Below, in pieces: positions 19,502 to 62,093 of a stretch of DNA of 64,000 nt. Location: positions 620,001 through 684,000 of the forward strand of contig NZ_FOIZ01000002.1 of NCBI RefSeq assembly GCF_900109295.1, written 5' to 3'. The first letter of the stretch is position 1; the number at the start of each line of letters is the position of its first letter. The notes below the pieces were generated by a model. It was not told where the DNA came from. It made no database searches and was given only the letters and a program-made list of their open reading frames with translations. The position numbers and the translations under genes are program-made. The stretch comes from Cognatiyoonia koreensis (lineage in GTDB: Bacteria > Pseudomonadota > Alphaproteobacteria > Rhodobacterales > Rhodobacteraceae).

Positions 19502-20584
19502 ATGTTTGATGCACAAAAAGCTGATACGCCACGCGAAGCCGTGTGCCCGATCCATGCACCTGCCGACCACCCAAAGGTGAAACCTGCGAAAGTGGGCATC
19601 TTGTTGGCCAACCTCGGCACGCCTGATGCGACCGACTATTGGTCAATGCGCCGTTACCTGAACGAATTTTTGTCAGACAAACGCGTTATCGACTATTCCG
19701 CGTGGCTTTGGCAGCCACTGCTGCAACTTGTGATCCTGACAAAGCGACCATTCTCATCGGGCGCCGCATATAAATCGATTTGGAACGAGGCGGACAACGA
19801 AAGTCCGCTGATGACCATCACCAAAAAGCAGACGGCAGCCATCAAGGCGGAAATGCAGGCGCGCTACGGCGACGATGTGCACGTCGATTTTTGTATGCGT
19901 TACGGCAACCCGTCGACAAAATCCAAGGTCCGGGAAATGACTGAAGCCGGCTGCCAGAAGATCCTGTTTTTCCCGCTGTATCCACACTACGCTGGAGCGA
20001 CGTCAGCGACAGCGAATGACCAATTCTTCCGCGCTTTGATGGCAGAAAAGTGGCAACCTATCGCCCGTATTGTTGAACCCTATTTCGAAGACCCAGCCTA
20101 CATAGACGCGTTGGCACAGAGCATCGAAAACGCCTATGCCACTGCGGAAACAAAGCCCGAAATGCTGATCTGTTCTTATCATGGCGTTCCAGAGCGGTAC
20201 TTGCGCGAAGGTGATCCCTACCACTGCCAGTGCCAGAAAACGACGCGACTACTCAAGGAACGGCTTGGGTGGGACGATACGCAGATAAAAACGACGTTCC
20301 AATCACGGTTTGGCCCCGAAGAGTGGTTGAAACCCTACACTGTGAAAGAAGTTGCCCGGCTAGCAGAAGAAGACGGTATCAAAAACATCGCCGTCTGCGC
20401 CCCAGCCTTCTCAGCCGATTGCATCGAGACGCTTGAAGAAATTAACGAAGAGATCAAAGAATCCTTCGAAGAAGCCGGTGGCGAGCACTTTACCTACATC
20501 CCATGTTTGAATGATGACGCTGCACATATTCACGCACTGTGCGGGGTGATTGACCAAAACCTGCTTGGGTGGGTGAACCGCTAG
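19502..20584 (+). CDS. hemH: ferrochelatase
   Basis: HemH inserts ferrous iron into protoporphyrin IX, the last step of heme synthesis. Family motifs are VGILLANLGTPDATDYWSMR at the N-terminus, the metal-site region SYHGVPERYLREGDPYHCQC with its conserved His, and FSADCIETLEEI near the C-terminus with the conserved Glu. The gene can start at GTG 19493, ATG 19496 or ATG 19502; the GAGG site at 19490-19493 is spaced best (8 bases) for 19502, giving 360 residues. Heme supply fits with the cbb3 oxidase and hemN elsewhere in the window. Confidence 0.95.
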   Translation: MFDAQKADTPREAVCPIHAPADHPKVKPAKVGILLANLGTPDATDYWSMRRYLNEFLSDKRVIDYSAWLWQPLLQLVILTKRPFSSGAAYKSIWNEADNESPLMTITKKQTAAIKAEMQARYGDDVHVDFCMRYGNPSTKSKVREMTEAGCQKILFFPLYPHYAGATSATANDQFFRALMAEKWQPIARIVEPYFEDPAYIDALAQSIENAYATAETKPEMLICSYHGVPERYLREGDPYHCQCQKTTRLLKERLGWDDTQIKTTFQSRFGPEEWLKPYTVKEVARLAEEDGIKNIAVCAPAFSADCIETLEEINEEIKESFEEAGGEHFTYIPCLNDDAAHIHALCGVIDQNLLGWVNR

Positions 20585-20593
20585 GCGAAGCAC

Positions 20594-20779
20594 TTAGCCC
20601 GTCTTTGTCGCTGAAATCTGGTTTGGCATCGGGGCCGCACCGGGAAGTACTGGTGTTCCGCTTGCTGCCTTGATCCGATCAATTAAATCAAGCAGCACGG
20701 CTGGGTCAGCGCGCGACCGGCATGACATCGCACCGAACTCGCAACGAGCGGAAGAATTTGGGATAGGCGGACGGGACAT
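20594..20779 (-). CDS. small protein of 61 residues, unknown function
   Basis: I do not recognise this protein. It has a Pro/Ser/Arg-rich start with two Cys (RCEFGAMSCRSR), a short amphipathic helix candidate (DPAVLLDLIDRIKAAS) and no membrane segment. A perfect AAGGAG ribosome site 8 bases before the ATG argues that it is really translated. It ends 10 bases from the convergent hemH stop. Its start faces a perfect Crp-type palindrome (20829-20846) whose centre is 58 bases upstream of the ATG. Confidence 0.6.
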   Translation of the reverse strand: MSRPPIPNSSARCEFGAMSCRSRADPAVLLDLIDRIKAASGTPVLPGAAPMPNQISATKTG

Positions 20780-20828
20780 GTTCTTTTCTCCTTGTTGCGT
20801 CCGTTATTTCCTGAATTCGGTGTGTGCG

Positions 20829-20846
20829 ATGTGATGAGCGTCACAT
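20829..20846. promoter_or_regulatory. perfect Crp-type binding site (ATGTGA-N6-TCACAT)
   Basis: The sequence ATGTGATGAGCGTCACAT matches the Crp consensus half-sites TGTGA/TCACA with a 6-base spacer on both sides, extended by one more symmetric pair. It lies between the divergent 61-residue ORF (minus strand) and the unknown gene starting at 20983 or 21097 (plus strand). A Crp-family gene whose recognition helix keeps the RExxxR pattern lies 0.9 kb away. Apart from this site and the small ORF, the stretch 20780-21096 shows only the possible N-terminal extension of the next gene. Confidence 0.6.
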
Positions 20847-21096
20847 TCTTCCAAGCTTTTTTCTGCGATGTCTTATGGAGTGTCGCATCCGAAACGACAC
20901 CGCACCGCGTCCCGCAAAGGGGACTATTCCAAAGCTCTTTGCCCCAGCTTGTGTGACAGCATCGAAAGAGGAGGGCCCCGGTTTGACTAGCAAAACGCCA
21001 CCTGATCTGCGGATCATAGACAGTGATCAACCTCCTCATTCTGTAAGCAAGTCATCGAAGAAACCTCGGCTGAGAATCAAGGAAGGGGGCAAAGAT

Positions 21097-21759
21097 ATGA
21101 CGCAGGTGGTTGAAGCGATGTCCGGCCAAAATGATCCGCCAGACGGTGTCAAAGTAGCGTTCCAAACCGTCGAAGCGTCATTGCGCGCAGAAAACTGGTT
21201 CTTTGAAACTGTGCGCGCCGAACTGGAGAAGACTGCCCCACTTTGCGAGTTTCCCACGATCATGGGTAGCAACGGGCATGATTATCTACTGCATTTTACT
21301 CAATTTCTGTTCTTTCTAAAAGCCTTGGATTGCACAGACGCAGACGCGATTGCGCACTATATCGAAACCCATAACGCACGCATCGAAAGCTTGCTGAAGG
21401 ACCCAAATTTCGCGAAGTCCAAGAACGAATTCAGAAAGGCGATCTTTCGGCCCGAACGCAAGGCCAAGGTGCTGGACACGGTCCGAACGCTTAGCGCGCC
21501 CGTTTTCGCAATCTACGAATTCGCACATCTTCTGATTGATGAAATGTCGCCGAAAACGACAGAAAAACTGATTGAAGATCTGCGCTTTGGTGGATTGTTG
21601 TCACGTAGAACGGATAACCGGATGTCGGCCGATCAAAAAAGAATACTCATTTCATCGACAGGGTTCTTAGAGAATACATACAGCATGTCATTGCTGATGC
21701 AGCGCAGGATGGTCGCGCTCACATTAAGCGAAGATGAATTCCGTAGGGCGAAGGCCTAG
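21097..21759 (+). CDS. hypothetical protein, unknown function
   Basis: I do not recognise this protein. From ATG 21097 it has 220 residues, is soluble and mostly helical, with a conserved-looking core (AENWFFETVRAEL, FLFFLKALDC) and no known motif. An alternative TTG start at 20983 has a stronger AGAGGAGGG ribosome site and would add 38 residues rich in Pro, Ser and Lys; the frame is open well before that. It converges with the Crp-like gene, the two stop codons sharing the bases CTAG at 21756-21759. The Crp-type palindrome upstream suggests cyclic-nucleotide-linked control. Confidence 0.75.
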   Translation: MTQVVEAMSGQNDPPDGVKVAFQTVEASLRAENWFFETVRAELEKTAPLCEFPTIMGSNGHDYLLHFTQFLFFLKALDCTDADAIAHYIETHNARIESLLKDPNFAKSKNEFRKAIFRPERKAKVLDTVRTLSAPVFAIYEFAHLLIDEMSPKTTEKLIEDLRFGGLLSRRTDNRMSADQKRILISSTGFLENTYSMSLLMQRRMVALTLSEDEFRRAKA

Positions 21760-22448
21760 ATATCAGCCAGTGCTGCCAGTCGTCCACGATCAAGCAGGAA
21801 AAGCTGCCGGCGTTCGACAATGACAATTCCTTCATCTGCCCATGCCTTGATGTGTCTGTTAACGTTTTCCCGTGCCAGCCCACTGAATTCACCAATTTCG
21901 GCCTGTGAAAACCGTTCCGACAAACGCAAACGGCCATTATCGCGCTCACCCCACTTATCAAAAAGCCTCAGTAGAGCGCGGGCAAGTCGGGTACTGCCTT
22001 CCGGTGCGGACTGGGTGGTGAACATGTCGGATGCATTGCGCACCTTGCGGCACAGTTCGGTTATGATGGCCTGCGCCACATCCGAGCGCTCTGCAACGAA
22101 AGCGAGGATATTTTGCCGCGACACAACCAGGCCCTCTACGGCACTTGCGGCAACCGTATCGGCACTGCGTGTTCCACCATCAAGTGCAGCGATTTCTCCC
22201 AAGACCTCGCCTGGTCCCATATGGGCCAAAACAGACTTCCGACCAGATAAAGAGGTGACCGAGACTTCGACACGCCCCTTTTCAATCAGCATGACCATAT
22301 CGCCTGGCTCACCTTCGGCAAATAACATCTCGCCTGCGGCAAAACTTCGTCGCTTGGCATCGGCAAAAAGATCGCGGCTATCCGCAGGATCCATTGCAGA
22401 CAACAGGATAGAACGACTTGGAGGCAAAGAAATGTCAAAACCGGGCAT
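21756..22448 (-). CDS. Crp/Fnr-family transcriptional regulator with likely cyclic-nucleotide site
   Basis: A 230-residue regulator. The N-terminal cyclic-nucleotide-binding domain keeps the phosphate-binding cassette PGEVLGEIAALDGGTRSADT, with Gly84-Glu85 and Arg94-Ser95-Ala96 at the positions that bind ribose and phosphate in Crp. No Fe-S cysteine set is present, so it is not an oxygen-sensing FNR. The C-terminal winged helix has SQAEIGEFSGLARENVNRHI, in which Arg193-Glu194-Arg198 match the RExxxR residues with which Crp reads TGTGA. It is divergent from the metallophosphoesterase operon (98 bases) and near a perfect Crp-type site at 20829-20846. Confidence 0.92.
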   Translation of the reverse strand: MPGFDISLPPSRSILLSAMDPADSRDLFADAKRRSFAAGEMLFAEGEPGDMVMLIEKGRVEVSVTSLSGRKSVLAHMGPGEVLGEIAALDGGTRSADTVAASAVEGLVVSRQNILAFVAERSDVAQAIITELCRKVRNASDMFTTQSAPEGSTRLARALLRLFDKWGERDNGRLRLSERFSQAEIGEFSGLARENVNRHIKAWADEGIVIVERRQLFLLDRGRLAALADI

Positions 22449-22546
22449 ATCTTCATAGGGGCCGGATGCGCACAGGGGGTCAACCTGTCTTTCTGACTTG
22501 TTGACAGAGTGGAAGATCAGCCTCCAGAATTGATGCGGGGGGAGCC

Positions 22547-23947
22547 ATGCTGAAATATATCTGCATTTCGGACTTGCACTGCGGTGCGCCCACCAGCCTC
22601 CTGATGCCGCCGCCCAGCCGTTTCAGTGCAGATCCAGAACCTGTCGCCACAACTTTCGCTGAGGCACTTGGGAGATTCCTGAGTGTGGCTGACGCAAGCC
22701 CCCAACTGATCCTGCTTGGAGATATTCTTGACCTGCAGTTTTCGAACCGATCACATGCATATCAAAACGCAGTTTCGTTCCTGAAGCCTATTGCAGACAC
22801 AGGACGGATCGCACGCGAAGTCATCGCTACAGCGGGAAATCATGATCATGCTCTCTGGACAGATGCACGCCTGTCGTTAGAGGCCGATACCTTTTCCCGC
22901 CAGCCGGACACGCCGGAGTACCGCGGCGCGACCAACGCGTTCTGCCCTACTTACAGTGCTGATAGCCGTTTGCTGACGTCATTAATTAAGCAATCCGGCT
23001 TCAAGGGCGTCGATCTGCGGTATCCAAATATTGGATTCGCCAACAAAGAGCGGGCCGTTGTTTTACATCATGGACATTTTATCGAGGAAGAATACCGCCT
23101 TGTGACTCGTATCAAGGAAAAGCTGATTGGCGATCATGCGTCTTTGCCCACTGTTGAACAAATCGCCGTCGAAAACGCCGGCTGGATCGATTTCTTCTGG
23201 TCTACGACGGGTGACTCCGGTGTCGGAATTGAGTCCAGCAGCCTCTACCAAAATGTCCTGACCAGCACTGGTTTCCGCCGGCTCGCAGGGAAGCTCGCCG
23301 ACGAAATTCGTGACACGCTGCGGGACAAGCTACCCTTTGCGGGCAATATCAACGTGCAAGAAATCATCCGGTCGTTCGCAATGGCCGGTCTTGATCTTGG
23401 CCTTGGGCGGTTCCGCGATACGGAAAGGTACTCCGAAGTTACCGCACTTACGACCAAAGGGTATGAGGGCGTGGCATGGTATCTGAATGGTCCTGTGAAG
23501 AACCAGATTCAATCTGAGTTGAAAGCGGTTTTTGCAGAAACGACCTTTGTTTGCGGCCATACGCACAAGCCATTTGCTGAACGGATCGTCGCATCCGGCT
23601 TTGCGAAACCCGTAAAGACATACAACACCGGTGGTTGGACCCTGAACGGACCGAGGCTGGACAGTGCAGAGGGTGCTTCGATGATACTCATTGATAATAA
23701 GTTGAACGTTGCATCTGTGAATCTGTTTTCGACACCAAAAGGTGGCATTGTTCCGGCGGCCCGTGTCCAGATGTTGTCCGACGGGCCCGACGCCACCGCA
23801 TTTCGGGATCAAATCGCAGGATGGCTGGCTCAAAGTGAAACAGAGTGGACAAGGTTGGCCGAAGTAGCTTGCAAAGCGTATTTCGAACGTCAGGAATACC
23901 TGCTTGATCTTACAGCAGATCATATTGACCGGCAGGCTGCTAAATGA
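22547..23947 (+). CDS. metallophosphoesterase (calcineurin-like)
   Basis: A 466-residue phosphoesterase with all metal-site motifs: SDLHCG (Asp9, His11), GDILDL (Asp59, Asp62), AGNHDH (Asn98, His99, Asp100), HHGH near residue 173 and GHTHKP (His338, His340). There is no signal peptide, so it acts in the cytoplasm. It is longer than simple cyclic nucleotide phosphodiesterases (about 270 residues) because of an insert between residues 180 and 330. It is first in a three-gene set and overlaps the next gene by 4 bases (ATGA). The substrate is unknown; a cyclic nucleotide or a phosphorylated lipid are options suggested by the neighbours. Confidence 0.9.
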   Translation: MLKYICISDLHCGAPTSLLMPPPSRFSADPEPVATTFAEALGRFLSVADASPQLILLGDILDLQFSNRSHAYQNAVSFLKPIADTGRIAREVIATAGNHDHALWTDARLSLEADTFSRQPDTPEYRGATNAFCPTYSADSRLLTSLIKQSGFKGVDLRYPNIGFANKERAVVLHHGHFIEEEYRLVTRIKEKLIGDHASLPTVEQIAVENAGWIDFFWSTTGDSGVGIESSSLYQNVLTSTGFRRLAGKLADEIRDTLRDKLPFAGNINVQEIIRSFAMAGLDLGLGRFRDTERYSEVTALTTKGYEGVAWYLNGPVKNQIQSELKAVFAETTFVCGHTHKPFAERIVASGFAKPVKTYNTGGWTLNGPRLDSAEGASMILIDNKLNVASVNLFSTPKGGIVPAARVQMLSDGPDATAFRDQIAGWLAQSETEWTRLAEVACKAYFERQEYLLDLTADHIDRQAAK

Positions 23948-26900
23948 AGGCAGCTTTTCCGAAGATATCCAAGCCATTCGCCGAAGCAGAGACAAAAAAC
24001 CAGATCATCGTCATCGGGTCCGGCTATGGCGGTAGTGTTGCCGCTTCACGTTTGGCGCGGGCTGGCCAAAGCGTCACGGTTTTGGAGCGGGGTCGCGAGA
24101 TAAGGCCCGGCGAATACCCCAACGACTTACCATCGGCCAATGATGAAATACAGGTCACGCTGTCAAAGACCGGGAAGACCATCGGGAAAACTGATGGTCT
24201 GTATGATTTTCGGATTGGCGATGACATGAACGTTTTTGTCGGCTGCGGTCTAGGTGGAACGTCGTTGATCAATGCGAACGTCGCAATCGAGCCGGACCGG
24301 CGCATTTTCAGCCAATGGCCGGATCCTTACAAAAGCGACCCAAAGATTCTTGACCCCTACTTTGACCGGGCGCGTGCGATGTTGGGATCAAACCCGCTTC
24401 CTTCTGATCAGAACCCACCGAAACTGCGCGCATTTTCACACGTTGCCAAAGGACTTGGTGTCTCGTTGGAACGACCCGACTTGAACGTTACTTTTACCGA
24501 CGGGCTGAACGCGGCCGGAATCCACCAATTCGCTTGCAACCACTGCGGCGATTGCGTGTCCGGTTGCAACTATGGTGCAAAAAACACTGTCCTGATGAAT
24601 TATTTGCCTGATGCGGTGGCGCATGGAGCCAGCCTATTTACGGGTGCTGAGGTCACGCATCTGATCCAAGGCGATGGGATTTGGCAGGTGCACACGACAT
24701 CAAGGAAAACACCATTGACCGCTGATATTGTCATCCTCGCGGCAGGCTCCCTTGGAAGTACCGAAATCCTGCTACGATCTGATACGCTGGCACTAAGCAA
24801 TCGCCTGGGGCAGCGGTTTTCCGGCAACGGTGACGTCTGGGCCTTTGGTTACAACGCGAATATCAAAGATGCGGACCAAATCAATGCAGTGGAGAACCGT
24901 TCCAATGTTTATGGCGTTGGCGCGGGCCCACACCATCCGGACGAAGGTGAAGCCTACGCGCCCGGTCCCTGCATCACTGGCATGATCCGGTTGCAAGGCG
25001 ATACTCTGTCAGAGGATATGCTGATAGAAGAAGGCGTGATGCCAGGGGCCTTGGCGGCAGGATATGCTGCGGCATTCCCTGTGATTGACGCGCTAATGGG
25101 CGACCCATTCAGGTTTGGCGATGCGGCCCAGCGCTTGCAAGACATGGCCGATGTTGCAAATGCAAAATCGCTTGCCGACTCCGCCTATGACGGCCCTGTC
25201 GCTCGAACGCTTCCATTTCTCGTTATGAGCCACGATAGCTCTGCCGGCGTCTTGGAAATGAAAGCGGACCGGATCAGTGTGAGGTGGAAAAACGCCGGAT
25301 TAGACCCTGCGATTGTTGCCGATGGTGCCGCAATCAGTCGCGCCAGTGATGCCATCAAGGCCGAATACCTGCCAATGCCCTTTTGGCAGGACGCTTTTGG
25401 AAACCGCTTGATTACGGTTCATCCAATTGGTGGCTGCGCAATGGGGAAGGACCACAAATCCGGTGTCGTGAATTCAGATTGTCAGGTGTTTCGACATGAT
25501 GGCGGGCTCTACGAAGGGTTGTTCGTATGTGACGGTGCCTCGTTGCCCGGCGGTGTCGGCGTAAATCCACATCTGACGATTACAGCTGTTGCCGAACGGG
25601 CGATGGACGAGCTGGTGAAAGCGCAGGGTTGGCAGACGGATACAACACCTGCAAAGCCGCTTAACCAATCTGTCCCATCAAAGCCGGCCAAGTTGGGGCT
25701 ATCCGATCTAGAAAAACTTCATCAGGCACTTTCTGAACTGGTCCATGCGATCACCGAAGGCGATCTGCCTTTGTCGAAAAGCAAAATTAGCAATGTCTGG
25801 TTAATGCTGAGCATTGCTTACGCGAAGCTAGTCCCGGTTGATCTGAAGAAAAGATATCCGATAGCGAGCCAAGAAACACTTTTTGAAGTGTTAAAATCAG
25901 ACACCGACTATACGGCAATCGTACTTCCAATTGCTGAACAAATGCTCGATCTTCTCATCGCGTCGAAACCAACCGGGTTGAGAGAGAGACTTAAAAACCT
26001 AGAGACGCTGACAGGTGATTTTTCACCGGGCGGCGGATTTGATGAAATCATGCGCGGGCGCATTTCATCTCTCGGACTGACAGACAATCCGGCTTCACGC
26101 GATCCTTTCCGGGTCGCGGCGAAAGCGGGCGCAAACTGCACGTTCACGGCCAAAATCAGGACGGAAAAAATACGTCGCGCGACGACGCCACCAGACGGCT
26201 TTCTTTCAATCGAATCTGGCACATTTCATTCGGAAGCAATCGGCGGTTCCTTTTTCATCAAGGACGGCAAGTTCCGCTTTATGATGCCTGATCCGGAAGT
26301 CGTCGAAAAATGGGAAATGACCTATGCTGGCAATCTTATGTCGGCGGGAAGCAAAGACGAACAACTACGATTTGAATGCTTCAAAACAATTCAACGCCGT
26401 GAAGGTTCACATTGGTGGCGTGATCTGACGGAATGCCGGGTGAAGGTGTTTAAAGACAACGTGGAGATAGCACGCGGATTATTGGAACTTGAGCTGCAAG
26501 ATCTGATTGAACAGGCCGTAAATTTGGATATTTCCTATACGACCAAGGCACTGATGCAGGGTTTCATAGACGCGTACGAGGTGATTAAGGGCGCTGGCCT
26601 TGATGCTCCAAGCACACTGCCAGATGTGTTCGACAACCCAGCTTTGCGGGCAAATCTTGTGTTAGGGGTCGCGCATGTTCTGAACGAAAACGGCCAACAA
26701 GCTGAGAAGGCGCTGACCGACTTCTACAAAGCGCAGGTGCTCGGAAAGTTTGGGGAGTTCGCGTTGCGGACCTACGGCGGTGTGTTCAGCTACGCATCGA
26801 ACTTTCAAGAACGGGACAGAAATGAAAGTCTTGTTAAAGACCCGTATTTGAATGCCGCGACCTACCAATTCGAGTCTGAACCGGGCGTATGGCTTCAGCT

Positions 26901-27954
26901 GACCCACTATCCTGGCACCAAGGGACCGATCGTGCTTGCTGGCGGGTTTGGCACATGCGCATCTTCTTTTGCGCTTCCAACGGTCGATCAAAACCTCGTG
27001 CAAGCGCTAATGGCAGAAGGCTATGACATTTGGCTGTTCGACTACCGTGGTAGTGGTGCGATAACAGCAAGCCAGATACCTTTCACCCTCGATCAGGTTG
27101 CCCAGTACGATTGGCCAACCGCGATCGACGAAGTACTTAAACGAACCCCTGTCAAGAATGCATCAGACGTGCAAGTTCTGGTCCATTGCATCGGATCAAT
27201 GTCATTATTCATGGCGTTGCTTTACCAGCGCTTGCCAGTTCGCCAAGTCATCGCATCCGCAACTGGTCCATTTGCAATCACAAATTGGTACAACTATGCA
27301 AAGTCAGACGTGGAATTGTCGCGCTATGTGGCCGAAGGATTGCCGCGACAGATGTGGGGGTTGATTGATATGCTCGATCTGGCCCCAGATGTTGCAGAGG
27401 CTGCGAAACATGGTCTTGCGGTCTTTGATCCGCGCGCACCAAGCCCGCATCCCTTCTATTCGAAAGACATCGATAACGCGCTTACCGGACTTGCCTGGAA
27501 AGTCCCGGGTTTCGCGCCGACGGAATGCTACAGTCCGACGTGCCACAGGATTACATTCGGATTCGGCCCAAGTTACCTGCATGCCCAGCTCAATCAGGCG
27601 ACCCATAATACAATTGCTGACTTGTTCGGCCCGGTCGCATCGCGATCCTTCATCCATATCGCGAAGATATTTGAGAGAGGCACTGTCATCGATGTGAACG
27701 GCGCAGACATTTACATGCCAAATGTCGCTAATTTGGATATGCCGATCCATTTTATTGTCGGTGCGCTTAATCAAGAGATGCTGCCGGAGGCGACACTACG
27801 GGCGCAGCACTGGTTGCAGCAAAATAATGGCAATCCGGAGCGTTACACACGCCATGTCTATCCCAATTATGGGCATATGGACTGCTTCATCGGAAAAGAT
27901 GCCGATAAGCATATCTTCCCCAAATTGCTTGATATGCTCAGTTCAAGGGCCTAG
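23944..27954 (+). CDS. GMC oxidoreductase / alpha-beta hydrolase fusion protein
   Basis: A 1336-residue multidomain protein. Residues 20-560 are a GMC (cholesterol-oxidase-like) flavoenzyme: FAD motif IIVIGSGYGGSVAASRLARA, GCGLGGTSLINANV, HPIGGCAMG (His493) and GVNPHLTIT (His543). Cys197, 200, 203 and 207 form a CxxCxxCxxxC set inside it. Residues about 570-960 are an unrecognised middle region. Residues 970-1336 are an alpha/beta hydrolase with PIVLAGGFGTCASSF, DIWLFDYRGSG, a nucleophile elbow VHCIGS in which Cys1082 replaces Ser, and His1311 in YPNYGHMDCF. There is no signal peptide. It is coupled to the metallophosphoesterase gene by a 4-base overlap. Oxidation plus ester or thioester cleavage of a hydrophobic alcohol or sterol-like compound is the natural guess. 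Confidence 0.88.
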   Translation: MKAAFPKISKPFAEAETKNQIIVIGSGYGGSVAASRLARAGQSVTVLERGREIRPGEYPNDLPSANDEIQVTLSKTGKTIGKTDGLYDFRIGDDMNVFVGCGLGGTSLINANVAIEPDRRIFSQWPDPYKSDPKILDPYFDRARAMLGSNPLPSDQNPPKLRAFSHVAKGLGVSLERPDLNVTFTDGLNAAGIHQFACNHCGDCVSGCNYGAKNTVLMNYLPDAVAHGASLFTGAEVTHLIQGDGIWQVHTTSRKTPLTADIVILAAGSLGSTEILLRSDTLALSNRLGQRFSGNGDVWAFGYNANIKDADQINAVENRSNVYGVGAGPHHPDEGEAYAPGPCITGMIRLQGDTLSEDMLIEEGVMPGALAAGYAAAFPVIDALMGDPFRFGDAAQRLQDMADVANAKSLADSAYDGPVARTLPFLVMSHDSSAGVLEMKADRISVRWKNAGLDPAIVADGAAISRASDAIKAEYLPMPFWQDAFGNRLITVHPIGGCAMGKDHKSGVVNSDCQVFRHDGGLYEGLFVCDGASLPGGVGVNPHLTITAVAERAMDELVKAQGWQTDTTPAKPLNQSVPSKPAKLGLSDLEKLHQALSELVHAITEGDLPLSKSKISNVWLMLSIAYAKLVPVDLKKRYPIASQETLFEVLKSDTDYTAIVLPIAEQMLDLLIASKPTGLRERLKNLETLTGDFSPGGGFDEIMRGRISSLGLTDNPASRDPFRVAAKAGANCTFTAKIRTEKIRRATTPPDGFLSIESGTFHSEAIGGSFFIKDGKFRFMMPDPEVVEKWEMTYAGNLMSAGSKDEQLRFECFKTIQRREGSHWWRDLTECRVKVFKDNVEIARGLLELELQDLIEQAVNLDISYTTKALMQGFIDAYEVIKGAGLDAPSTLPDVFDNPALRANLVLGVAHVLNENGQQAEKALTDFYKAQVLGKFGEFALRTYGGVFSYASNFQERDRNESLVKDPYLNAATYQFESEPGVWLQLTHYPGTKGPIVLAGGFGTCASSFALPTVDQNLVQALMAEGYDIWLFDYRGSGAITASQIPFTLDQVAQYDWPTAIDEVLKRTPVKNASDVQVLVHCIGSMSLFMALLYQRLPVRQVIASATGPFAITNWYNYAKSDVELSRYVAEGLPRQMWGLIDMLDLAPDVAEAAKHGLAVFDPRAPSPHPFYSKDIDNALTGLAWKVPGFAPTECYSPTCHRITFGFGPSYLHAQLNQATHNTIADLFGPVASRSFIHIAKIFERGTVIDVNGADIYMPNVANLDMPIHFIVGALNQEMLPEATLRAQHWLQQNNGNPERYTRHVYPNYGHMDCFIGKDADKHIFPKLLDMLSSRA

Positions 27955-28000
27955 CCTTTTCTGCGGACGTCGGGAGAGTGTCCGGGGGACAGAAAAACAT

Positions 28001-31000
28001 ATGCTGACAACGCCGACGGGTGAAAAGAGATGGACGGCCATTCTGTCCACCGACATGGTCGGATCTACCCGTATCACACAGGAAATCGGCAACGAGAAGG
28101 TCTACGAACTGCTGCAGCACGTGTTGGGCCTGGTTCGCGAAGAAGTCGAAGCCCACGGCGGCCATGTTGTCGATACTGCAGGCGACGGTATCCTCGCCGC
28201 TTTCGGCGCACCTCGCGCATTGGAAAATGCGTCCGTGCAAGTTTGTGCTGCTGCAAACGCCTTTCGAAGGCGTTTGAACGCAGAAAGACAGACACTAGCC
28301 AAGCGTTTCGGTGTCATTCCAAGCTTCCGTACGGGAATCGCAGGTGGCAACGCAATGATCGCCCATGAGAACGATGATTCGATCAAGGTCGTTGGCGATC
28401 CCGTCATTCAAGCGACACGTTTACAAACGATTGCAGGTCCGGGTGATGTCCTCGTAACGCTGGATATTCAGCGAGAGATCGACGGCTTTGCGACTACGAC
28501 CGATCTGGGCTTTCAGCCAATAAAGGGTTTCGATGATCCCGTTCATATCCATGCGCTTGGCGAAATGCTGGAGGCAATTACGCGTTTTGACGGAACACGG
28601 CGGCGTGGAATGGTCGGATTTGTCAGCCGCAAAAAAGAGCTGGATCAAGCAGTTAGTTCTGTACTGAGTCAAGAACGTCCTCGTATTCTCTTAGTGTCAG
28701 GCGTCGCCGGTGTTGGGAAATCACGTTTGGTGCACGAAGTAGTTGCGAAGGTCCCGGACGACCGAACAGTCTGTTTTGGTCAGTGCATCCCAACGGGCCA
28801 AACGCCATTTGGACCAATCTACGAAATATTGCGACAGGTGATTGGTCATGCTGGACCACCAGACGCTGTCTTGAGGAAACTTACCGACTATTGTGATGCA
28901 GAGAACCTGCGCGTTGTGCTGGATCCGAAGACTGACGCACTCACCCGAGCGCTGCAGGAACGCGAAATCCTGACAGAAATCTTGCGACAGCTATCCAAAC
29001 AAAAGGCAATTATCTTCGTTATTGAAGATATCCACTGGATAGACTCTGCGTCGAACGATCTACTGGCTGGGCTTGCGTGTGAACCTTTGCCGCTGATTGT
29101 CACCGCCCGACCAACTTACGCGGCGGAATGGGCACGCGACGACGGCGTTTCAAAGGTTGTACTGTCGCCGCTGTCAGATAGCGAAATTGGAGAGATCGTA
29201 GTAGCGCGCTTTGCATCACCGGTTTCGCCGGAATTAAACGGGTTGGTCGCTCGGAAATCGGAAGGCATCCCGCTCATCGCCGAGGAAATTATTCGCGCCC
29301 TGAAATCCGGTAGTCAGCTGGTCGAAACTCCTGACGGACTCGGTCTGGGAGAAGGCGAAACCGGATTTGTCACCGGGAACCTCCAGCACCTTGTTCTTGC
29401 GCGAGTCGACAGGCTTTCGGCCTCACAAAAGGCAGCCTTGCAGCTCGCTTCTGTGATAGGCCGGGATTTCTCGACCAGCCTTCTCAAGAAAGCGATGAAC
29501 ACTCACGTCGATCTCGCCGGTCTGGGAGACATAGTTGAGCAGAAAGATGATGACCACTTTCGGTTTGTCCATGCTTTGATCCGTGATGCGGTTTACGGAA
29601 GTTTATTGTCGTCAGAACGGCGCATGGCGCATGGGCGCGTGGCACAGGCTCTAGAGTCTCTGGCGGACACAGAAACATTTGCACGCCTTGCTGACCATTT
29701 CACGCAAGCGGAAAACGCCGCAAAAGCCGTCAAATACTTGGTACAGGCCGCGCAACAGAGCCTGCAATCCTATGCTTTGCGGGATGTTGATATCCTATTG
29801 GAGCAAGCAATGCAGTACATCGAAGCGGATCCCACCCTTATTGAACCCGAATCCTTTGCCAGCCTCGCAATGACGTGGATCCGTGCTCTCGATCAGCTTG
29901 GCAGTTTCGGTCAAGTGCTGGACGTCGGGACGCGGTTGCTGCCACACCTTCAGACACATTCGCTAGGACACGAAGCTAATATGGTTCGGAACTTGAGCGC
30001 GATTGCTCTGACCCATACTCGTGACTACGCAGCCGCCGAACAACTGGCACAGAAAGTGCTCGCGGAAGCCGAGACAACACATGATGCGCTAGGCGCTGCA
30101 TGGGCGAAATTGGCGCTTTTGCGGACGTACGAAGAGACCTATTGGCGTCCGCCAGATTGGATCATTGATCTTGCAGATCAAATCATCCCCGTTGCCGAAG
30201 CCGAAAACGACACGCACCTCGCCATGATGACACTCTACCAGAAATCCGCCGTTTATCGGTCATCAGGAAGGCGCAGATTGGCGCTCGAAACCGCAGACAA
30301 AATCGCGTCATACTCAAGAACGCATAATGATCGGCGCGGTAGATCGTACGCACTTTGGGCGCGCGCTCTTGTGAGCATCGTTGAAGGCACGCCAGAGCAG
30401 GCCTACCAGACCGTTCAAGATGGCCGAAAGCATGTCATCCCCGGATCTGCCGATGCTGTCGTCGTCAATATGGTCGAACTTTATTGCCGCATATTCCGCG
30501 ATCCGCCGTCCGTTATGAAACCCTTGCTTGAAAGGTATCGCGCTGCGGTAATAGGTCGACCCGACTATAACCTGATCCATAGTGCAGATCTGTCACTTAT
30601 CCTAATCGCATTCAAGGAACGCCGGCTCGCAGATGGATGGCGTATGATCAACCAGATCATGCCTGAGATTGCACATTCCGGGAACGTCAACATGTGGCGG
30701 CAATACCTGCATCTGCGGGCGGAACTGTTACTAATCTTAGCCGGGCTGGTAGATCCTGAACTTGAGAACCCGACTCCGAATGGTCCATTCGAGACGAAGA
30801 AGCCGGGAATGCGGGATGCCATCACATTTGCATTTCTGCGTCTGCGCTGGAAGAAGATTGCAGAACGCGACTTACACAAGGCTATCGCGCTCGACCCACT
30901 CAAATGCGGGGCGCATTTCGCTCGGGCACATATCGGACTTGGGCTGATCGCCAAATCGCGCGGACGCACGTCTGATGCAATTAAACACCTTGAAACAGGT

Positions 31001-31105
31001 TATCAAAGTGCCGCTGAAGAAGGACTGACCCTTTTGCTTTGTCGCGCTGAACGTGCGCTGTCGTCATTTGGCATCTCGACACAAAAAGAAAAAGACGGCA
31101 GGTAA
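28001..31105 (+). CDS. class III cyclase-domain / STAND ATPase / TPR-like protein
   Basis: A 1034-residue signalling protein starting at ATG 28001. Residues 10-190 form a class III nucleotide cyclase domain with metal Asp18 (STDMVGSTRI) and Asp62 (GDG), but the substrate Lys position is Asp58 and the transition-state Asn is Ile136 (PVIQATRL), while Arg140 is kept. Residues about 205-600 are an AAA/STAND ATPase with Walker A GVAGVGKS (234-241) and Walker B AIIFVIEDIHWIDSAS. The rest is helical and TPR-like. Such proteins are known as adenylate cyclases with LuxR-type ATPases, but here no LuxR helix-turn-helix is seen at the end. It follows the oxidoreductase/hydrolase gene by 46 bases. Confidence 0.88.
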   Translation: MLTTPTGEKRWTAILSTDMVGSTRITQEIGNEKVYELLQHVLGLVREEVEAHGGHVVDTAGDGILAAFGAPRALENASVQVCAAANAFRRRLNAERQTLAKRFGVIPSFRTGIAGGNAMIAHENDDSIKVVGDPVIQATRLQTIAGPGDVLVTLDIQREIDGFATTTDLGFQPIKGFDDPVHIHALGEMLEAITRFDGTRRRGMVGFVSRKKELDQAVSSVLSQERPRILLVSGVAGVGKSRLVHEVVAKVPDDRTVCFGQCIPTGQTPFGPIYEILRQVIGHAGPPDAVLRKLTDYCDAENLRVVLDPKTDALTRALQEREILTEILRQLSKQKAIIFVIEDIHWIDSASNDLLAGLACEPLPLIVTARPTYAAEWARDDGVSKVVLSPLSDSEIGEIVVARFASPVSPELNGLVARKSEGIPLIAEEIIRALKSGSQLVETPDGLGLGEGETGFVTGNLQHLVLARVDRLSASQKAALQLASVIGRDFSTSLLKKAMNTHVDLAGLGDIVEQKDDDHFRFVHALIRDAVYGSLLSSERRMAHGRVAQALESLADTETFARLADHFTQAENAAKAVKYLVQAAQQSLQSYALRDVDILLEQAMQYIEADPTLIEPESFASLAMTWIRALDQLGSFGQVLDVGTRLLPHLQTHSLGHEANMVRNLSAIALTHTRDYAAAEQLAQKVLAEAETTHDALGAAWAKLALLRTYEETYWRPPDWIIDLADQIIPVAEAENDTHLAMMTLYQKSAVYRSSGRRRLALETADKIASYSRTHNDRRGRSYALWARALVSIVEGTPEQAYQTVQDGRKHVIPGSADAVVVNMVELYCRIFRDPPSVMKPLLERYRAAVIGRPDYNLIHSADLSLILIAFKERRLADGWRMINQIMPEIAHSGNVNMWRQYLHLRAELLLILAGLVDPELENPTPNGPFETKKPGMRDAITFAFLRLRWKKIAERDLHKAIALDPLKCGAHFARAHIGLGLIAKSRGRTSDAIKHLETGYQSAAEEGLTLLLCRAERALSSFGISTQKEKDGR

Positions 31106-31149
31106 CATATATCCGCCGCCATGAATCCAGTCTTGTTGAACGATCGTTC

Positions 31150-31746
31150 CTAGATCAACAGAACCTGCGTTCCAACGCTTGCCATGCTGAAGAGTTCAGC
31201 AATGTGTTCGTTGTATAGGCCGATACACCCATTTGAGGAACGGCGTCCGATTTTGCGTGTGTCGTGCGTACCGTGGATACGATAGTACGTCCAAGACAGG
31301 TAAAGCGCATGTGTACCAAGTGGATTTTCTGGTCCAGGTCCGATGAACTCGGGCCACTCGGGATTGCGTTCACGCATGGATGGTGTTGGCCGCCAACTTG
31401 GCCCTTCGACCTTGCGGACAACTTCCGTACGCCCCTTGCGGGTCAAATCTTCGGTCAGTGGTACGCTGGACGGATACAATTTGTAGACCGACTGATCTTC
31501 GGACCAGAAATGCACGGCACGCGATTGCAGATCGCACAGGATCGCACCACCAGCCAGATTGCTGAAATAGGGCTGCCAGTCCAAGGAACGGAAGCTGGAT
31601 GTATTGCGCTGCACGCTGGAGGAGATGTTCGATTCGACTTCGGTGCTATTCGCGGTCGCCTGCGCTATTGCGCTGCTACCCATCATCGCGGCGGATGCTG
31701 CGAGGAACCCGCGTCGGGACAATGCGACTGTTGTCTTTTTGGTCAT
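31150..31746 (-). CDS. L,D-transpeptidase (YkuD), Tat-exported
   Basis: A periplasmic peptidoglycan cross-linking or anchoring enzyme. It begins with a twin-arginine signal (LSRRGFLAASAAMMGSSAIA) and carries the YkuD catalytic stretch YRIHGTHDTRKIGRRSSNGC, with catalytic Cys in SSNGCIGLYN and His in IHGTHD. The 198-residue length fits single-domain alphaproteobacterial enzymes. It is divergent from the CAP lipoprotein gene (170 bases) and ends 44 bases from the convergent end of the cyclase/ATPase gene. Confidence 0.93.
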   Translation of the reverse strand: MTKKTTVALSRRGFLAASAAMMGSSAIAQATANSTEVESNISSSVQRNTSSFRSLDWQPYFSNLAGGAILCDLQSRAVHFWSEDQSVYKLYPSSVPLTEDLTRKGRTEVVRKVEGPSWRPTPSMRERNPEWPEFIGPGPENPLGTHALYLSWTYYRIHGTHDTRKIGRRSSNGCIGLYNEHIAELFSMASVGTQVLLI

Positions 31747-61352: not shown

Positions 61353-62093
61353 TCAATTCAGGAAACCACCGTCTGAATCGTCCCCGGTCTCAGCAAGCAA
61401 CGCTTCCAGATCAGGGACGATAATCTGGCGTTTACCATCGAATGAAATCAAACCGTCTTTTTTCAAGGCGGACATCTGGCGGCTGACAGTTTCGATAGTC
61501 AAACCAAGATAGTTGCCCATTGCCTCACGGGTGATGGGCAGTATGAACTCTGTCCCTTCGGTAGGCTTACGCATCTGAAGGGAAGCAGTCCGCATCGCAA
61601 TCATGGACAGCAGGCTTGCGATCTTTTCACGGGCTGTTTTGCGGCCAAGAACCAACATCCATTCCCGCGCTGCATCCAGTTCATCAAGGGTCATTTCAAG
61701 CAGGCGCTGACCAACGTGTGGTGTGGATTCAATCAGTTTTTCAAAGGGACGCCGGCGGAAACAGCACAACATCACATCGGTTTCTGCAACGATATCGCTT
61801 TCGATGGTTGTTCGGTTCGGGCGACCCATAAAATCAGACGGCAGCAGAAGGCCAACCATTTGCACCCGCCCGTCCGGCATCGTTCGCGTCAGGCTGGCGA
61901 CGCCGGACACGATTGACCCAACAAATTCGAGATCATCCCCAGCAAAAAAAATCGTCTGACCAGCATCGTAAGTCCGGTAATATTTGATTTCTTCAAGCTC
62001 GGACAATTCGGCTTCGTCGCACTTCGAACAAACGGCATTGTAGCGAATTGGACAATCAGAGCAGTTCTTCATTTTTGGCAGGGTTATGTTCAT
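61353..62093 (-). CDS. fnrL: oxygen-responsive regulator FnrL (FNR family)
   Basis: FnrL is the 4Fe-4S oxygen sensor of Rhodobacteraceae. Three or four N-terminal Cys are seen in CSDCPIRYNAVCSKC and a further one in DVMLCCF. The HTH (ITREAMGNYLGLTIETVSRQ) contains ExxSR, which reads TTGAT. ATG 62093 follows GGAG; ATG 62105 is an alternative. The FNR boxes at 56729, 60406 and 60438 are its likely targets. Confidence 0.95.
   Translation of the reverse strand: MNITLPKMKNCSDCPIRYNAVCSKCDEAELSELEEIKYYRTYDAGQTIFFAGDDLEFVGSIVSGVASLTRTMPDGRVQMVGLLLPSDFMGRPNRTTIESDIVAETDVMLCCFRRRPFEKLIESTPHVGQRLLEMTLDELDAAREWMLVLGRKTAREKIASLLSMIAMRTASLQMRKPTEGTEFILPITREAMGNYLGLTIETVSRQMSALKKDGLISFDGKRQIIVPDLEALLAETGDDSDGGFLN

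Follow-up and report, generated by a model that had tools for sequence, protein, structure and literature searches.

The window analysed here, 64,000 nucleotides of the 3.65-Mb genome of Cognatiyoonia koreensis, carries five genes between hemH and YkuD: a gene for a hypothetical protein, a Crp/Fnr-family regulator on the minus strand (CRP) and, on the plus strand, a metallophosphoesterase (MPE), a GMC oxidoreductase–hydrolase fusion (GMCH) and a protein that joins a cyclase domain to a STAND ATPase (CYC). The first-pass annotation had placed four of them at 21756–31105, where open reading frame (ORF) positions and Pfam matches locate all four; it had overlooked the fifth, the hypothetical gene at about 20983–21759 (+). 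Judged from sequence comparison across genomes, MPE–GMCH–CYC with a local receptor is a real conserved module, and because related sets stay together in other bacteria it looks like a real regulated unit.

GMCH (23944–27954, +), whose first 4 bases are also the last 4 of MPE, resembles two known types of enzyme in sequence and predicted fold, cholesterol oxidase in its oxidoreductase half and lysosomal acid lipase or polyhydroxyalkanoate synthase in its hydrolase half. The N-terminal GMC half (23944–25659, +) matches GMC_N and GMC_C above cut-off, while the NCBIfam cholesterol oxidase match of the protein stays below its own. A flavin adenine dinucleotide (FAD) motif, GSGYGG, aligns to cholesterol oxidase, as do His493 and Asn541, two residues that we take to be catalytic and that are invariant in 11 of 11 sequences. 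A middle region with a helical and a beta-rich part (25660–26805, +) has no Pfam match. The C-terminal alpha/beta hydrolase (26806–27954, +) is closest to gastric and lysosomal acid lipases, with the acid-lipase fold supported by sequence and predicted fold; Abhydrolase_1 matches the window's protein only below cut-off (5.6e-4). Cys1082, His1311 and Asn1276 stand at the triad positions, and no Ser nucleophile is present, Cys occupying its place in 21 of 21 aligned sequences. GMCH thus differs from cholesterol oxidase and acid lipase in the fusion of its halves, the middle region, a CxxCxxCxxxC motif and, at the triad, the replacement of Ser by Cys and of Asp by Asn. The two closest relatives fit the earlier guess that the target may be a sterol-like alcohol or ester. 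The CxxCxxCxxxC motif (residues 198–208; window 24535–24567), as in 4Fe-4S ferredoxins, is likewise invariant in 11 of 11; an iron–sulphur cluster in a cholesterol-oxidase-like enzyme, if true, would be unusual.

To follow the genes across genomes, we kept the best 80 of 350 confirmed GMCH relatives from a contig scan; the addition of the window, L037 and L039 brought the total to 83 loci. Gene calling in L041–L120 was mechanical, and some calls were antisense in the GC-rich Variovorax loci (cluster 21), where tblastn was therefore used. A CYC relative was counted when it scored above 150 bits, and absence of CYC refers to the fetched flanks. At 56 of the 83 loci MPE is the gene immediately 5' of GMCH. 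CYC occurs at 16 of these 56 and at no other locus, leaving 40 loci with the MPE–GMCH pair and no CYC match. Fourteen of the 27 loci that lack MPE directly 5' do not span the full fusion in the contig scan; in L089 MPE lies about 500 bp from GMCH, and in L098 elsewhere in the locus. All 12 full-fusion loci labelled or recognisable as Rhodobacteraceae among the best 80 have CYC. It stands downstream of GMCH or divergently on the far side of MPE (L039, L045, L046, L080), and the flanks around the MPE–GMCH–CYC order are mostly unrelated between genomes. Two of the CYC carriers (L054, L056) are near copies of each other, and another (L061) is recorded as a Saprospiraceae metagenome-assembled genome (MAG). 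Absence of a conserved gene order in every relative, which the first-pass annotation had named as grounds for refutation, is thus contradicted.

GMCH is rare. At E 1e-40 it was found in 8 of 394 genomes of the window's Rhodobacteraceae-like family, a count that takes in the window's own genome and a fragment in G544, and it was found in 2 of 385 genomes of a class-wide draw, the second being a partial, GMC-only match. MPE occurs in 4 of 149 family genomes, all four of which also have GMCH. CYC-like proteins are common (29 of 149 family genomes at 1e-25), and those above 450 bits occur only in the four GMCH genomes. Over 15 loci the distance matrices of MPE, GMCH and CYC correlate with r values of 0.77–0.88, a level reached in none of 5000 permutations.

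MPE (22547–23947, +) has a large helical insertion (about residues 181–325) and matches PF00149 barely above the cut-off. Its metal motif (D9xH11, GD58-59, GNHD97-100, H175/H177 and GHxH337-340) is invariant in 23 of 23 aligned relatives. In its predicted model (mean confidence, pLDDT, 85.5), LpxH, a UDP-2,3-diacylglucosamine pyrophosphohydrolase, tops both structure-comparison lists; MPE differs from LpxH in its 466 residues, its 17% identity and its neighbour GMCH. The first-pass annotation had cast MPE as a possible signal-degrading enzyme. In such a full loop MPE would be a cyclic-nucleotide phosphodiesterase that ends the signal, which we consider very improbable. The intact motif would allow it, the phosphodiesterase Rv0805 appears at rank 19 in the Foldseek list, and an analogous locus in Sinorhizobium meliloti includes the metallophosphoesterase SpdA. 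According to the available text on that locus, however, SpdA cleaves 2',3'-cyclic AMP (cAMP) and has no detectable activity on 3',5'-cAMP (PMC4222275), which warns against MPE as an off-switch. MPE also does not track with the cyclase, since it stands 5' of GMCH in the 40 loci where no CYC was found, and LpxH rather than a cyclic-nucleotide phosphodiesterase leads both lists. As MPE follows GMCH and its model is closest to LpxH, it is probably metabolic rather than signal-ending.

The genes look like one cassette, given two empty sites in congeners. The block that contains them (20580–31151, 10.57 kb) is missing from both other searched genomes of the genus (G001, G002). At the two congener loci (L177, L178) the DNA alignment ends at window 20579 and 20572, respectively, and picks up again at 31152, so that the aligned hemH and YkuD sides are separated by about 76 and 18 bp. 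In both genomes hemH adjoins a CAP gene, with YkuD-homologous DNA in between; neither genome has a match to the hypothetical protein, and the matches to CRP are weak, at 26–32% identity. Acquisition fits these empty sites better than loss in both congeners, though loss is possible. No repeats joining both ends of the block, such as would reveal how it moved, are among those listed (window 20400–31400, at least 14 bases).

CRP (21756–22448, −) is divergent from the operon, as the first-pass annotation had stated, with 98 bp between the CRP and MPE start codons. It matches PF00027 (5.5e-21) and PF13545 (HTH_Crp_2; 1.4e-13) above cut-off, and its nearest solved relatives are CRP/Fnr-family regulators (E 5e-29). 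The intact cyclic-nucleotide pocket reported for it is borne out by alignment, in which the window's CRP keeps Gly-Glu, Arg and Ser. All 9 aligned module CRPs keep Arg and the Ser/Thr base contact; 8 have Glu, and L044 has Asp instead. Some of these positions are those that generally line the pocket in this family. Others follow the available text of PMC11224242.

A cyclic-nucleotide-binding protein adjoins the module at 10 of the 16 CYC loci, which upholds the earlier suggestion of a cyclase-type STAND protein and a receptor conserved beside one odd enzyme. CRP-family genes lie beside the module in nine of the 16 (the window, L041–L044, L046–L048 and L078). L039 has three proteins with a cyclic-nucleotide-binding domain (cNBD; L039:86-3736), one a SulP-STAS-cNBD protein and two with hydrophobic N-terminal parts. 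An additional cNBD protein with a hydrophobic N-terminal part, together with a BCCT transporter, is found in L046 (14319-17617) and L078 (17687-21157); membrane segments of the cNBD proteins were judged by eye. The SulP-STAS-cNBD protein, the other cNBD proteins and the BCCT transporters may hint at controlled transport or at a charged substrate. Kangsaoukella pontilimi carries all four genes of the set, and in Shimia abyssi no CRP was found next to the others. Seven module genomes hold 6–14 cNBD matches per whole genome, and five of the seven have at least one beside the module. A rough chance estimate for this adjacency is 2.5e-6 (10-kb flanks), a figure that counts genomes as independent although they are not, and ignores shared descent. 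A second match to a cNMP-binding domain in the window, at 61725-61976 (−; G000:C2:681725-681976), lies far from the module.

In a tree of 25 CRPs, from which the empty L039 row was left out, placing the module CRPs takes 4 changes, of which well-supported branches force 3, against a shuffled mean of 7.5. Those of the window, L042, L043 and L044 form one clade and those of L041 and L047 another, and L046 and L078 belong to a different subfamily; this scatter suggests that module CRPs were recruited repeatedly. It also bears on the view that MPE–GMCH is a metabolic cassette beside unrelated regulators, with adjacency due to shared descent and not to function. We find that view quite improbable: the recurring receptors come from more than one CRP subfamily and include other cNBD proteins, and CYC keeps with the pair in either orientation within mostly different flanks, even if CRP relatives do occur without the module and, among the 40 pair loci without CYC, only L051 has a CRP match, about 7 kb from MPE.

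CYC (28001–31105, +) combines a class III cyclase-homology domain (about residues 8–185), an AAA_16/STAND ATPase and a TPR-like C-terminal part. As listed, the ORF opens at 27722, within GMCH, but homology sets in only at about 28001 (MLTTPTGEKRW), most likely the true start. AAA_16 and Guanylate_cyc match above cut-off and TPR_2 below it, no kinase match is present, and the best NCBIfam match, TIGR03903 (TOMM kinase/cyclase; 6.2e-57), falls far below its cut-off. All 16 module cyclases retain both metal-binding Asp residues (Asp18 and Asp62 in the window) and the transition-state Arg (Arg140). Beyond these residues the L044 copy is interrupted by an in-frame stop (L044:15081-15083), which in this MAG reflects either decay or assembly error.

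We lean, with little more than even confidence, towards the reading that the block is a horizontally acquired, self-regulated lipid-metabolism cassette in which CYC is the sensor and CRP reads its cyclic nucleotide. The gene content, the empty sites, the conserved order and the recurrent neighbouring receptors that this reading starts from are observed, and the folds are predicted. MPE and GMCH would form its constant enzymatic core and share one pathway, in which the LpxH-like MPE would act with GMCH, apparently an FAD-dependent alcohol oxidase joined to an acid-lipase-like half that would use Cys as its nucleophile; we infer as their substrate a hydrophobic phosphorylated or esterified alcohol. 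The STAND ATPase/TPR part of CYC would sense that substrate or a partner protein as its ligand and would control the activity of its own cyclase domain. The cyclic nucleotide would be read by the neighbouring CRP, which would act through a putative site in the divergent CRP/MPE promoter region, the direction of regulation being conjectural.

Several findings weigh against this proposal, at the cyclase, at the promoter and receptors, and in other versions of the locus. For the window's copy, the least secure part is the cyclase step. The transition-state Asn, kept in 14 of the 16 module cyclases, is Ile136 in the window and Val in L048, and with this catalytic residue missing the activity of the window's cyclase is doubtful. 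Asp58 stands in place of the adenine-selecting Lys and Lys129 in place of its partner Asp/Thr, at a site assigned partly from alignments and partly by our own presumption. This Lys is found in none of the 16 module cyclases, as opposed to 6 of 16 other STAND-cyclases of the family. From its sequence, the window's cyclase may be weak, inactive or making another nucleotide. The unit could then be real and the cyclase dead, its domain serving nucleotide binding or dimerisation of the STAND protein while CRP reads a cyclic nucleotide made elsewhere in the cell. We regard this as an unlikely alternative, if one of some weight. The lost Asn and the absent Lys agree with it, and so does a degenerate cyclase-like part beside a winged helix in Aquincola (L085), but retention of the metal Asp residues and Arg throughout, and of Asn in all but two, suggests selection for catalysis in most relatives.

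Non-canonical base-selecting residues are also present in the Mycobacterium tuberculosis cyclase Rv0386. According to the available text of PMC11224242, non-canonical base selectors occur in active pyrimidine cyclases; since such selectors are known in active enzymes, catalytic activity of the CYC relatives is plausible by sequence and analogy. Pyrimidine cyclases also inspire the improbable alternative that CYC makes a non-adenine cyclic nucleotide, with an exchange of the usual charges resetting base recognition. In 6 of 16 module cyclases, those of the window and its close relatives (L041–L044, L047), Asp takes the position of the Lys and Lys that of its partner. BcPycC is described in the same source as using Tyr50, Asp94 and Arg97 for UTP (PMC11224242); by analogy with Arg142 and Asp146 of EaPycC, Asp94 would fall at the Lys site. 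PADLOC gave weak matches only, the best for CYC to PycC (6.6e-8) and one of CRP to PycTIR (3.3e-10). Against a non-adenine product, the other two BcPycC residues are unmatched in the window on this tentative register, and the module CRPs keep Ser/Thr at the adenine contact, said in the accessible part of that paper to be typical of cAMP recognition (PMC11224242).

The divergent promoter region (22449–22546) contains TTGACA at 22501–22506 and no CRP-type palindrome. Palindrome and CRP-like pattern scans of the window, L041–L044, L047 and L048 found no shared CRP site upstream of MPE or CRP, the latter scan giving a single match, in L044 only. Seven of the 16 CYC loci have a TTGACA-type −35 element no more than 150 bp from the MPE start (TTGACA in the window, L041–L044 and L047; TTGACT in L048), exactly those with the main CRP type; as these loci are also the closest relatives, the sharing proves nothing. 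No receptor beside CYC was found in 6 of the 16 loci, two of which (L037, L080) were checked genome-wide with PF00027 and four (L045, L054, L056, L061) by tblastn with CRP and cNBD queries only. In G530, the genome of L080, a related CRP sits on another contig. Close CRP relatives also turn up where there is no module (at 1e-25, in 15 of 149 genomes, the window's included), a single CRP gain with several losses is possible, and receptor adjacency may be due in part to shared descent.

Other versions of the locus keep the enzyme pair with different regulators, so that the pair appears as the constant part and the control part as the variable one. In ten Variovorax-type loci (L049–L053, L055, L057, L077, L082, L087) a winged-helix STAND-TPR protein stands beside GMCH, and in L089, L090 and L086 it lies farther off; tblastn did not find it in L088, L091, L092 and L094. 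The Variovorax STAND protein has no match to CYC at E 1e-8, so a swap of output is an analogy except in Aquincola L085, where a winged helix, the degenerate cyclase and AAA_16 share one protein. Where the cyclase/CRP pair is missing, winged-helix STAND proteins would, on that analogy, give direct DNA output, a substitution that speaks for the proposed cassette: a STAND protein with its own DNA-binding domain would need no CRP, and one with a cyclase usually has a separate receptor adjoining. Erythrobacteraceae-type loci gave no match to STAND queries, neither CYC nor the winged-helix protein being found. They and Aquincola (L058–L060, L062, L064–L076, L079, L081, L083–L085, L093) have a beta-lactamase-family protein directly 5' of MPE–GMCH, which is absent before MPE in the Erythrobacteraceae-type L063.

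A wider reading, tentative and on the whole unlikely, would see here a mobile signalling cassette whose outputs can be swapped. STAND sensors would serve a single pair of lipid enzymes, the LpxH-like phosphoesterase and the cholesterol-oxidase/acid-lipase fusion with its Cys-His-Asn triad. They would signal either through a DNA-binding domain of their own or through a cyclic nucleotide, the receptors in the latter case being CRPs, membrane cNBD proteins or a cNBD transporter-like protein recruited on the spot. Because the base-selecting Lys/Asp pair is exchanged, the messenger in the window's close relatives may not be cAMP.

The fifth gene (20983–21759, start approximate, +) encodes a conserved hypothetical protein with 162 relatives and no Pfam match. 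A relative shares a contig with the module in G463 and G713, about 21–22 kb from the module edge, and another adjoins CRP in L042. In all three it closes a Tad-like/caspase block, for which reason we rejected it as a module part and regard it as a probable passenger from such a block. In these three close relatives, L041/L036 (G713), L047/L035 (G463) and L042, the module adjoins the block, which comprises Tad-pilus-like genes (RcpC, T2SSE, T2SSF), FGE-sulfatase, caspase-type proteins and OmpA; for L042 the fetched stretch covers only the FGE-to-hypothetical end.

The first-pass annotation knew of no described system of this composition, a view that holds only in part: like the window, the S. 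meliloti cyaD1 locus (CyaD1, Clr, SpdA and the target smc02178) brings together a class III cyclase, a Crp-like receptor and a metallophosphoesterase (PMC4222275). Its cyclase is receptor-like, whereas CYC is a cyclase–AAA_16 protein with a TPR-like C-terminal part; the available text names no GMC/hydrolase fusion or STAND protein there (PMC4222275), and MPE in the window follows GMCH. Xanthomonas campestris XC_0250/XC_0249 also links a class III cyclase to a cyclic-nucleotide-binding protein and differs in using cGMP and other partners, with lipid enzymes unmentioned in the accessible parts of the sources (PMC3770947, PMC11224242). Pycsar systems likewise place a cyclase (PycC) beside a cyclic-nucleotide receptor, a cNBD–transmembrane or cNBD–TIR effector; in some relatives of the module, cNBD proteins whose N-terminal parts are hydrophobic, with membrane segments again judged by eye, recall the transmembrane effectors. 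Unlike those effectors, the window's receptor has a helix-turn-helix (HTH), is a transcription regulator without transmembrane or TIR part, and accompanies metabolic core enzymes. STAND-cyclases such as Rv0386 and the TIGR03903 proteins share the cyclase–ATPase architecture; TIGR03903 is a kinase/cyclase model, and CYC has no kinase match. Rv0386 carries a fused LuxR-type HTH, whereas DNA binding in the window resides in the separate CRP. A few wordings searched in open-licence PMC full text found no description of a system of GMC oxidoreductase, metallophosphoesterase and adenylate cyclase, nothing useful on STAND cyclases and nothing related on a GMC/hydrolase fusion, the one paper returned, on M. 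abscessus, appearing unrelated to judge by its listing.

What class III cyclases do in bacteria is, according to the available text of PMC4222275, poorly understood. The conserved order described here ties a cyclase-STAND protein to one enzyme pair, usually together with a local receptor, and so makes input, messenger and target testable together.

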